Shown here one piece after another: positions 14,816 through 31,421 of a stretch of 31,421 bases of DNA. The DNA is from a virus. The position numbers were made by a program, and so were the translations under genes. The notes under the pieces were generated by a model. The model was not told where the DNA came from. It saw nothing but the letters and a program-made list of their open reading frames with translations, and searched no databases. The stretch is taken from positions 1 through 31,421 of the IMG/VR virus record IMGVR_UViG_3300037493_001277; one strand, written 5' to 3'. How positions within the stretch are numbered: the stretch's first letter is position 1; each line of letters starts with the position of its first letter.

Positions 14816-15013
14816 TTAACTTTCTCTTTCGTTTATTTGGTCGTGAAAGTTCCATAAAAATTCATTGATTAAATTTTCATCGCCTTCTCCGTTCTCTTTA
14901 TTTATGGCATTGCTGTTAGTGGTTAAAAGTCTGTAATTGTTTCCGTTGTGCTTTATGTAACACAACCAGCGCCCATCAGCTTTAGGGAAAATTTTTGTTA
15001 TTTCAGTTTTCAT
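14816..15013 (-). CDS. Small protein, paralogue of the gene at 16352-16552
   Basis: 65 residues. It shares with the first gene of this block a start of MKxxI, a central TTxSxAIxxExGEG and xLxNEF, so both descend from one duplicated gene. The fold is likely a small beta sheet followed by one helix (LINEFLWNFHDQI). Function unknown. Its stop codon lies inside a 14-bp motif (14804-14817) repeated at the end of the adjacent gene. Confidence 0.7.
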   Translation of the reverse strand: MKTEITKIFPKADGRWLCYIKHNGNNYRLLTTNSNAINKENGEGDENLINEFLWNFHDQINERES

Positions 15014-16351: not shown

Positions 16352-16552
16352 TTAATTGTTTTCATTTTCGTAAATGTTCTCATAACACACGCGCACAAAT
16401 TCATTGAGTAATGTTTTATGGCCTTCGCCATCTTCATTGTCAATCGCTTGGCTGTCAGTGGTAGTGAAAGAGTAAGAGTAGTTTCCAAGTTTAACGGTTA
16501 CTCTCCAATGACCGTATCCTGTTTTGGTAATGCTTTCAATTTGCGCTTTCAT
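16352..16552 (-). CDS. First gene of leftward block, paralogue of 14816-15013
   Basis: 66 residues from the ATG at 16552. The reading frame extends upstream, but it would include the leftward promoter, so the ATG after an AAACAAAC-rich leader is preferred. A beta-rich N-terminal half (YGHWRVTVKLGNYSYSFTTT) is followed by AIDNEDGEG and a C-terminal helix. It is clearly related to the 65-residue protein at 14816-15013. Function unknown; early expression is expected from its promoter-proximal place. Confidence 0.7.
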   Translation of the reverse strand: MKAQIESITKTGYGHWRVTVKLGNYSYSFTTTDSQAIDNEDGEGHKTLLNEFVRVCYENIYENENN

Positions 16553-16579
16553 AATATAAGTTTTTGTTTGTTTGTTTAG

Positions 16580-16612
16580 CAAATATAGGAAACTTATTTT
16601 GATATTAAACAA
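16580..16612 (-). promoter_or_regulatory. Leftward early promoter
   Basis: On the minus strand, TATATTTG (16587-16580) is a perfect -7 box; TTG at 16612-16610 gives a 22-nt spacer, longer than at the other promoters. The start codon of the first leftward gene lies 27 nt downstream of the box. The 12 bp around the box is an inverted copy of the rightward promoter's. Confidence 0.6.
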
Positions 16613-16671
16613 AACTTATTAATAAAGTTTATGAACAAAGCAATGTTTATAACTTATTTTGTTTAGTCATA

Positions 16672-16701
16672 TTGTTTATTAATAAAGTTGGCCTATATTT
16701 G
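16672..16701 (+). promoter_or_regulatory. Rightward early promoter
   Basis: TTG at 16672-16674, a 19-nt spacer, then TATATTTG at 16694-16701 (perfect TAnnTTTG). The palindrome TTTATTAATAAA (16675-16686) lies in the spacer and could be an operator. Transcription should start near 16706, just before the long inverted repeat of the leader RNA. Confidence 0.7.
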
Positions 16702-16708
16702 CTCACAC

Positions 16709-16993
16709 GTTCATTGAGGGATTGGCAAACAAAATCCGATTTTATAGGAAAGCAGGACGCGCACCATAGCGGTTGTCTTAAGTAATAAGAAAATGAAAAC
16801 CATCACTATTCGTAGCGGTGTCGCAAACTAGCGATAATGAAATAGGAACGGGACTATGCAATGTGAGTAGTAAGCAATGTCTTCTCGACACAGTAACCAA
16901 TCTGCACTCTCGTAAGAGATGAGAACAGAGATAGTAGCTTTCACCGAACCTGACACAATGTAAATAGGACAGATACCATACCCCTCATTGAAC
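16709..16993 (+). ncRNA. Candidate structured RNA / long leader of early operon
   Basis: This 285-nt segment has no substantial reading frame and looks richer in G and C than the flanking AT-rich DNA. Its ends pair: GTTCATTGAGGG (16709-16720) with CCCTCATTGAAC (16982-16993), 11 of 12 positions. Local hairpins inside are ATTGG/CCGAT (16721-16740), a bulged stem at 16756-16777, a TTCG-capped stem at 16799-16819, TCGC/GCGA (16821-16834), ATAG/CTAT (16842-16857), TGTC/GACA (16878-16890) and CTCT/AGAG (16907-16918). The RNA would begin at the early promoter's start point. I match it to no known RNA family; it could be a free non-coding RNA or a cis-acting leader. Confidence 0.5.
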
Positions 16994-17025
16994 TTAATTT
17001 TAAACCAATAAAAAAAATTACTAAA

Positions 17026-25091: not shown

Positions 25092-25189
25092 AGTTAACAA
25101 CAATAAAGTGCATAGTGTGCGAGTCTATTATAGACCATGCTGAGGTATTTTGTTATAAGTGTGGGGTTGCATTGAGAAGTCCACTATAA
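25085..25189 (+). CDS. Tiny zinc-ribbon protein
   Basis: 34 residues with two CxxC pairs, CIVC (9-12) and CYKC (23-26), 10 residues apart, forming a minimal zinc ribbon. It is the last of five overlapping genes and lies just upstream of terminase. Function unknown. Confidence 0.5.
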   Translation: MVELTTIKCIVCESIIDHAEVFCYKCGVALRSPL

Positions 25190-25206
25190 TAGTGAAAAGT
25201 AGTGAT

Positions 25207-25506
25207 ATGGCTAAGTTTGAGAAAGGACATAAAAAAAAAGGCGGTAGAGAAAAAGGAATTGAAAACAAAATCACGCAAGACGCGAGAGAATTGTTTATTA
25301 GTATAATGGAGGGCGAAGTATGCCACGTCCAAAAGGCGTTAGCTGATGTAAGAAATGAGGACTCAGTAAACTATCTAAGATTACTAACTAACCTATTCCC
25401 TTACTTCATACCTAAGAAGACAGACGTTACCACAAACGGCAAGGATATTAATATGACAGATAGTAAGCCATTTCACGAATGGGCGGACGATGATAAAACA
25501 GAATAA
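25207..25506 (+). CDS. Putative terminase small subunit
   Basis: 99 residues from the ATG at 25207. The basic FEKGHKKKGGREKGIENKIT start, followed by helices (ELFISIMEGEV; VNYLRLLTNLFPYFIPKK) and an acidic C-terminus, is the plan of short phage small terminase subunits that recognise the packaging site. It overlaps the large-subunit gene by 17 nt. In-frame sequence upstream overlaps the zinc-ribbon gene and was left out. Confidence 0.65.
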   Translation: MAKFEKGHKKKGGREKGIENKITQDARELFISIMEGEVCHVQKALADVRNEDSVNYLRLLTNLFPYFIPKKTDVTTNGKDINMTDSKPFHEWADDDKTE

Positions 25507-26743
25507 GAAATACAAAGAATTATACACTACCGATAAAAGATATATCATCATAACGGGCGGAAGGGGTAGCGGTAAATCTTTTCACGCAAATACAGCAATG
25601 TGTTTGTTAACGTATGAGCAAGGGCACAGAGTGTTGTTTACTCGATATACAATGTCAAGTGCTGAAATATCTATTATTCCTGAGTTCACCAATAAGATTG
25701 AACTGATGAATAAAGAGGAAGACTTCCACGTAAACAAAACAGAGATAACAAACAAGGTTACTGGTAGCGAAATAATCTTTAGAGGCATCAAAACAAGTTC
25801 GGGCAATCAAACAGCTAACCTAAAAAGTATTGCCGATGTTACAACGTGGGTATTAGATGAAGCAGAAGAGTTAATAGATGAAAGCATCTTTGATAAGATA
25901 AACCTATCGATAAGAACTAACAAAGCTAAGAATAGGGTTATAATGGTTCTCAATCCATCAAATAAAAAGCATTGGATATACAAAAAGTTTTTTGAAAAGC
26001 ATTTATCATTTATAGAGATTGATGGAGTGCAAATAGAAACAACCACCCACCCTGATGTGTTGCACATTCATAGTACCTACTTAGATAACATCAATAACCT
26101 TTCTGCATCGTTTATTAAAGATGTGGAAGAGATGAGAAAAATAGACTTTAACCACTATTGCCACGTTGTATTAGGTCAATGGCTTGGTAGGTTAGAGGGT
26201 GCGTTGTTTGTTGAAGATACTTTTAGATACTTCAAAACATTGCCTGAGCATAAGCCCGACAGCGTACTTGGTTATGTCGATGTTGCCGATGAAGGAAGCG
26301 ATTACCTATGCGCTGTATTTGCCAAAATATACGGCAATCAAATCTATATTACAGATGCTATCTTTACTCAGGACACAATAGACATAACGTGTCCGATGGT
26401 GGTGGCGAAGATTAAAGAGTTGAACGCTGATTATACGAGAGTAGAGGGTAACAATCAAGGGGGCGGCTTCATTCGATTACTAAGGCAATCGGTCCAAGAG
26501 GATAAGATATTAAGCGTTAAGAACACCCAAAACAAACACACGCGTATTTTAATGAGTTACCACACTATCAAGAATAGATTCATGTACGTTAACCCAGCAA
26601 AGCAAACAGACGAATATAGAGCAATGATGCAACAGATATACGAGTACAAAAAAGACGGCAAGAGCAAACACGATGATGCGCCCGATTCGATGGCTGGGCT
26701 CGGTAGGTTTATTGAGGTGATGCTTCCGCATATCTTAGAATAA
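25490..26743 (+). CDS. terL: Terminase large subunit
   Basis: 417 residues, PBSX-like. The ATPase has Walker A GGRGSGKS (23-30) and Walker B VLDEAEE (121-127, with the catalytic acid). The nuclease domain shows GYVDVADEG (D264 and D267), VEGNNQGGG (E319) and KHDDAPDS (D395/D396), the RNase H-like metal ligands. It cuts concatemers and drives DNA into the prohead through the portal encoded next. The 417-residue length is normal. Confidence 0.95.
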   Translation: MIKQNKKYKELYTTDKRYIIITGGRGSGKSFHANTAMCLLTYEQGHRVLFTRYTMSSAEISIIPEFTNKIELMNKEEDFHVNKTEITNKVTGSEIIFRGIKTSSGNQTANLKSIADVTTWVLDEAEELIDESIFDKINLSIRTNKAKNRVIMVLNPSNKKHWIYKKFFEKHLSFIEIDGVQIETTTHPDVLHIHSTYLDNINNLSASFIKDVEEMRKIDFNHYCHVVLGQWLGRLEGALFVEDTFRYFKTLPEHKPDSVLGYVDVADEGSDYLCAVFAKIYGNQIYITDAIFTQDTIDITCPMVVAKIKELNADYTRVEGNNQGGGFIRLLRQSVQEDKILSVKNTQNKHTRILMSYHTIKNRFMYVNPAKQTDEYRAMMQQIYEYKKDGKSKHDDAPDSMAGLGRFIEVMLPHILE

Positions 26744-30206: not shown

Positions 30207-30240
30207 GGGGGAGGGTTCATACTCTCCCCTTTAATTTTTA
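30207..30240 (+). terminator. Intrinsic terminator after capsid gene
   Basis: GGGGAG (30208-30213) pairs with CTCCCC (30224-30229) around a 10-nt loop, followed by a T-rich stretch (TTTAATTTTT). It is similar in sequence to the hairpin behind the tail-tube gene. The T-tract is interrupted, so some readthrough to the next genes is likely. Confidence 0.8.
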
Positions 30241-31069: not shown

Positions 31070-31421
31070 TGTATAAAACAGATATAATAGATTACTTAAG
31101 CAGCGTACTAACTGCGGTTAATAAGACCGTAACTATTACGGCAACAACTAACCCAAGCGCGGGCGTTTATACCATTACCGTTGATGATGTTAAATGGATT
31201 CAACCAAGCATTGTGCTATCAATAGGCAGTAACAATTACACCGTAAGTTCGATTTCGGGCTGTGTGATTACTCTAAGTGGTAGCGCTGCAATAATTGTTA
31301 GTTCATTCACGTTGCCAACGGTTTACTTTTTTCATGGGACCGTTAAAGAAACCAATATCACTCTAACTAAAAGACAATTTGATACTGATAAAACACCGCT
31401 TGTCTATTTGCTTGAAATATT
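31066..31421 (+). CDS. Head-tail completion candidate, 5' part (continues at position 3)
   Basis: The N-terminal part of the protein of about 232 residues that is completed by 3-470 once the circle is closed. It starts MMYKTDIIDYLSSVLTAVNK (the first of two tandem ATGs overlaps the previous stop) and continues with a beta-rich module (NPSAGVYTITVDDVKW; LSIGSNNYTVSSISG). The frame stays open across the junction, which independently supports circularity. Probably a neck or tail-terminator protein, by position. Confidence 0.85.
   Translation, partial: MMYKTDIIDYLSSVLTAVNKTVTITATTNPSAGVYTITVDDVKWIQPSIVLSIGSNNYTVSSISGCVITLSGSAAIIVSSFTLPTVYFFHGTVKETNITLTKRQFDTDKTPLVYLLEI
31295..31421. repeat. Right copy of 127-bp terminal overlap
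   Basis: Identical to 1-127; see the left copy. Removing one copy closes the genome at 31,294 bp. Confidence 0.95.

Follow-up and report, generated by a model that had tools for sequence, protein, structure and literature searches.

A candidate structured RNA element of about 285 nucleotides behind divergent early promoters of phages that probably infect Flavobacterium-like bacteria

The gene-free gap and its genomic context

The largest gap in the 31,421-nt virus DNA analysed (hereafter the window, meaning this whole stretch) spans positions 16553-17025, a total of 473 nt without a plausible gene, the next gaps being of 138 and 74 nt. Most of it is taken up by a 285-nt element, in agreement with the original prediction of a non-coding stretch in the largest gap of the genome. 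The gap also holds two divergent early promoters, with TATATTTG on each strand. The features of this region are presented in Table 1.

Table 1. Features of the gap and of the candidate RNA element, in window coordinates.
Feature	Position	Strand	Remarks
TTG of -33 region	16672-16674	+	19 nt upstream of TATATTTG; sequence, pattern scan
-7 element TATATTTG of the rightward early promoter, reading into the element	16694-16701	+	sequence, pattern scan
TATATTTG of the leftward early promoter	16580-16587	-	element behind this promoter in L028, L031 and L013
Predicted transcription start	16706/16707	+	inferred from the F. johnsoniae 4-5 nt spacing (PMC6847099)
RNA element of about 285 nt, candidate accessory early RNA	16709-16993	+	none of the variants has a conserved coding frame; homologous elements in L028, L031 and L013
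5' arm of closing stem, GTTCATTGAGGG	16709-16720	+	11/12 complementary to 16982-16993; paired with a probability of about 0.95 in each of the three variants
Helix 5, 5' side, CAGG	16753-16756	+	pairs with 16949-16952; change to CAGA/UCUG in homologues is compensated
Domain closed by helix 7 (16772-16779 with 16843-16849)	16772-16849	+	U-A/C-G/U-G at one pair; encloses hairpins 16801-16820 and 16821-16834
Hairpin, TTCG loop in window, CTCGC loop in homologues	16801-16820	+	stem with A-U to U-G compensated change
Hairpin TCGC-AAACTA-GCGA	16821-16834	+	stem invariant, loop variable
Highly conserved 94-nt core	16855-16948	+	1 change with respect to L028
Hairpin pair in core, TCTG...CAGA around TCTCGT...ATGAGA	16901-16929	+	minimum-energy fold of all three variants
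Helix 5, 3' side, CCTG	16949-16952	+	pairs with 16753-16756
3' arm of closing stem, CCCTCATTGAAC	16982-16993	+	followed by TTTTTTT in L028 and L013, but by TTAATTTT in window
Gene of small predicted DNA-binding protein, HTH-like, 61 aa	17026-17211	+	downstream of element; L028, L031 and L013 have the gene without the element upstream

The promoter consensus of Flavobacterium johnsoniae is TTTG/TANNTTTG, with transcription starting 4-5 nt past the -7 element and a mean leader length of 33 nt (PMC6847099). With this spacing, the predicted start falls 2-3 nt ahead of the first base of the closing stem, as had been proposed when the element was said to begin at the expected transcription start of the TATATTTG promoter, and a leader of about 320 nt would precede the next gene. 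The distance from TATATTTG to the element is 7 nt in the window and 6 nt in the homologous contig L028, and the local G+C content of the element (0.40-0.44) is set off from that of its surroundings (0.19-0.35). Judging from the arrangement of the sequence, the 61-aa gene would be co-transcribed with the element in the window, yet it is not the partner gene of the element in the homologues.

Several additional observations were made around the gap. Across many relatives the predicted DNA-binding protein of 61 aa is conserved at 95-100% identity, and no match to it was found in Pfam, PHROG, named phages or solved structures. A 24-nt inverted repeat (79%) lies between the divergent promoters at 16616-16639 and 16662-16685, and AACTTATTTTG is duplicated there; both may serve as operators, perhaps for the 61-aa protein. 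The leftward early operon differs strongly among relatives, and two small early proteins encoded in the minus strand of the window (16352-16552 and 14816-15013) share the pattern T..S.AI..E.GEG...L.NEF and look like paralogues.

The record is a complete-looking circular virus genome, and the exact 127-bp repeat at 1-127 and 31295-31421 points to a closed circle or a terminally redundant assembly of about 31.3 kb. Relatives of its terminase and capsid proteins are largely found in Flavobacteriales phages (Flavobacterium, Nonlabens, Leeuwenhoekiella, Riemerella), and the window promoters carry the Bacteroidota form TANNTTTG; the hosts of the element-bearing viruses are probably Flavobacterium-like bacteria. 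No close prophage was found, the family search around one weak match covering 3 genomes, and the window contains neither tRNA nor tmRNA genes. The large terminase gene (25490-26743, with 25159-25506) shows 46-50% identity to all six compared relatives carrying it, in contrast to the adjoining portal and capsid genes (80-99% identical to relatives), and looks as if it had been swapped by recombination. A strong G+C-rich hairpin followed by T-rich DNA, 3' of the major capsid gene (30207-30230), is a likely terminator.

Predicted structure and conserved core

The predicted fold of the element is multibranched with its two ends joined, and 14 helices are included in the predicted consensus. The closing inverted repeat of 12 bp claimed originally is present at the ends, but it is complementary at 11 of the 12 positions, and when the gap was shuffled by dinucleotides a repeat as good at similar spacing arose in 10 of 150 sequences (7%), so that taken alone it constitutes weak evidence. 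In the homologues a second pair of this stem is also lost, the remaining 20 paired bases being unchanged; their conservation amid 19% divergence is expected by chance in about 1.5% of cases. The hairpin with a TTCG loop described originally was likewise found, but this loop is not conserved in the homologues. The fold energy is not unusually low when compared with shuffled sequences (z -1.55 for the window, 0.08 and -0.12 for two homologues).

A test of structure conservation, with shuffles that preserve both the conservation pattern and the core/shell blocks, gave an index of 0.935 for the sense strand versus 0.826 +/- 0.042 in the shuffles (P 0.01), the value for the antisense strand being 0.872 (P 0.17). 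Three compensated double changes were found among 75 pairs of the three distinct sequences (helix 5 G-C/A-U, helix 7 U-A/C-G, helix 8 A-U/U-G), a number equalled in 90 of 500 shuffles, and covariation starting from the own predicted fold of the window was mostly not significant across comparisons (P 0.02-0.30). A common sense-strand fold of the three distinct sequences is thus supported by these models, not proven.

The changes between the window and L028 (37 in 284 columns) are unevenly distributed, with 1 in the 94-nt core and 36 in the other 190 columns (19%). Fisher's test gave P 3e-6 and a run-length permutation P 1e-4, the latter being the fairer figure because the limits of the core were set after seeing the data. 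Strong selection on the core would be a simpler explanation of this pattern than the exchange of a short patch.

In the window, no terminator-like site was found 3' of the element, nor was a promoter seen that would serve the following gene separately. In L028 and L013 the run TTTTTTT directly follows the closing stem, and no local hairpin was scored there. The longest antisense frame (42-53 codons) was also considered as a gene and rejected, because substitutions are distributed 6/4/5 by codon position, without third-position bias.

Homologues, empty sites and comparison with known RNAs

Relatives were collected via the downstream 61-aa protein, RecT and a leftward gene. Homologues of the element, about 86% identical to that of the window, were found in only three other virus contigs (L028, L031 and L013), corresponding to two RNA variants since the L031 element is identical to that of L028. 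In all three contigs the element stands behind the leftward promoter, reading leftward on the strand of the promoter, and starts 6 nt past TATATTTG. The first gene downstream is the HTH-like gene in the window, MKATVIRK in L028 and L031, and MYDVNVF in L013. Inversion of the whole promoter-plus-RNA segment was rejected, as the promoter segment keeps the same forward orientation in the window and in L028, with 92% identity; only the RNA changes sides of the divergent promoter. When L013 and L028 were compared, the flanking genes were 72-75% identical, the promoter plus element 94% and the element itself 98%, which indicates a recent horizontal exchange and a module that travels between phages.

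Six relatives (L004, L006, L008, L009, L011 and L014) have intact divergent promoters with ordinary short 5' UTRs and an empty site, and close relatives with the same HTH gene are mostly devoid of the element. Covariance model R1, run against the whole records of 20 relatives (fragments in some cases), revealed no copy, and a covariance-model search of 395 Bacteroidota genomes gave chance scores only (best E 0.08). Blastn detected nothing homologous to the element in phages or plasmids. DNA patterns were scanned for five times in virus contigs and once in genome contigs; beyond the three contigs mentioned above, these scans yielded only chance oligomer matches that were discarded by profile search or by inspection, a result that for the 15-mer pattern holds among the matches listed. 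As far as the sequences allow us to judge, the element is a facultative module docking at the +1 of either early promoter, always on the strand of the promoter, and a candidate RNA family of narrow known distribution.

Neither the window nor a homologue matched any family of Rfam 15 at gathering score (including GOLLD, ROOL, RNase P, tmRNA, group I/II introns and 6S), which bears out the original statement that no known RNA family could be recognised. A permissive search (E<=10) gave for the window only SAM-II (E 3.9), a chance match, and for L028 the 6A family (E 9.7) on the opposite strand. Likenesses to RNase P (AGGAAAG...CCATAG) and to the P7 pairing of group I introns (ACUAU/AUAGU) were inspected by eye and dropped, the order of the motifs being wrong and the models giving no match. 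The 6S RNA, a regulator of host RNA polymerase, consists of one long hairpin interrupted by a central bubble and measures about 200 nt or less. It resembles the element in the long-range closing stem that joins both ends, and the host polymerase had been among the targets suggested originally, but the predicted fold of the element is multibranched and no model of the 6S family matched it.

Two other comparisons are closer. The put elements of phage HK022 stand behind both early promoters and give an RNA of about 70 nt with two stem-loops, which suppresses termination by binding the zinc-binding domain of the polymerase beta' subunit (PMC9378689). The element shares with putL and putR the position behind a phage early promoter on the strand of the promoter (seen in the sequences of the window, L028, L031 and L013), the independence of the following gene and the lack of an evident protein partner. 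Unlike put, it is about 285 nt long, multibranched, facultative and placed behind one promoter at a time, and no sequence relation between both was found. GOLLD and ROOL are also phage-borne structured RNAs without assigned function, ranging from about 660 nt to more than 800 nt, frequently close to tRNA islands and with elaborate structures supported by covariation (PMC12286853); the element, by contrast, has about 285 nt and no Rfam match, and lies in a window without tRNA genes. By analogy, it would work most like HK022 put or GOLLD/ROOL, being a member of neither.

Proposed role and alternative explanations

The reading that we favour, tentatively and with a probability of roughly 0.4, is that the element constitutes an accessory, horizontally exchanged early RNA module, structured and of about 285 nt, which acts mainly in trans. 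According to this proposal, the host RNA polymerase would make the RNA early in infection and the transcript would fold end-to-end into a multibranched structure with its 5' terminus at the closing stem. Function would reside in the conserved core (16855-16948), through contact with a host factor. The RNA would act on a host protein or RNA, either as its decoy or as its inhibitor, after being freed by processing from the read-through early mRNA or while simply tethered to it. The promoter would be required only for expression of the element, and for this reason the downstream gene would be interchangeable. Action in trans, a host target and any processing are parts of the proposal that we infer.

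The strand-locking of the element to the promoter, together with its +1 position, argues for an action as RNA, and a gene-specific riboswitch is hard to reconcile with the interchangeable downstream genes; action in trans is more likely than a gene-specific leader. It had been proposed originally to collect leaders ahead of the same HTH gene in related phages; close relatives with this gene are mostly devoid of the element and elsewhere it precedes other genes at the opposite promoter, so that it is not a leader of the HTH gene. A role in packaging or replication, suggested at that time, is unlikely since the element is missing from close relatives that share the promoter region; this absence speaks as well against an essential operon-wide antitermination role. 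The more general claim of an unknown RNA produced from the early promoter finds partial support in the recurrence of the element, its promoter and strand relation, the core and the sense-biased structure. As in an independent trans-acting non-coding RNA, a promoter is present at the 5' end (TATATTTG). Against the trans-acting reading, the element as drawn is the leader of a longer mRNA, with no terminator and no promoter for the next gene seen, its stability is ordinary, and the covariation is thin (three compensated pairs), with three distinct sequences only.

One alternative is a cis-acting, promoter-proximal leader that alters the transcript or the polymerase for any operon, like put or a protector of the mRNA 5' end. 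In favour of such a leader, the element would always be transcribed first, in sense and at +1, it is fused to the early operon without terminator whatever gene follows, and HK022 has put behind both early promoters (PMC9378689). This explanation is doubtful and the trans-acting RNA is favoured over it: only one of the two early operons carries the element in any phage, close relatives keep the same operons without it, it is four times the length of put, and there would be little to read through, as intrinsic terminators are not in excess in the window (14 versus 11.2 in shuffles). If the element were instead a plain long 5' UTR or a relic, DNA gained by recombination at the promoter and transcribed without an RNA role, the fold energies no better than those of shuffles, the closing repeat reachable by chance (7%) and the lack of the element in most relatives would be readily understood. 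The core with 1 change beside 19% divergence, the exact +1 placement on two different promoters with spread between phages, and the sense-strand-specific structural consistency make this improbable.

The sharp ends with an inverted repeat of 12 bp (11/12) and the presence/absence polymorphism recall a selfish mobile element, based on RNA or on DNA, that has imperfect inverted repeats at its termini and inserts immediately 3' of TATATTTGCT, and the two insertion points have CCTATATTTGCT in common with different flanks. We regard it as quite improbable, since no target duplication or encoded enzyme was seen, copies were found at these two promoters only (none in plasmids, other phages or the 395 sampled Bacteroidota genomes), and co-orientation with the promoter is unexpected for a plain DNA element. 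Least probable is that the conserved core works as DNA, as an origin or as a site of recombination or protein binding, rather than as RNA: it adjoins the divergent promoter region, rich in AT and in repeats as regulatory or origin DNA typically is, but relatives retain this AT-rich region without the element, which excludes a required origin, and the orientation is locked to the strand of the promoter in both placements.

Returning to the trans-acting RNA module, its widest form would be a new class of mobile RNA modules, promoter-dependent and gene-independent, docking at the +1 of early promoters and producing a trans-acting RNA, which we consider rather unlikely at present. To our knowledge, the accessory genes known from phage early regions almost all encode proteins. 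A trans-acting module, if true, could be for example an RNA inhibitor of host defence or of the host RNA polymerase, delivered as the first product of infection in Bacteroidota hosts, which have an unusual transcription machinery. The analysis gives the candidate RNA a predicted start site, a length and a core that are precise enough to be tested, and an RNA cassette that swaps promoter sides and spreads between phages would, if confirmed, point to RNA-based takeover or counter-defence in phages of Bacteroidota.
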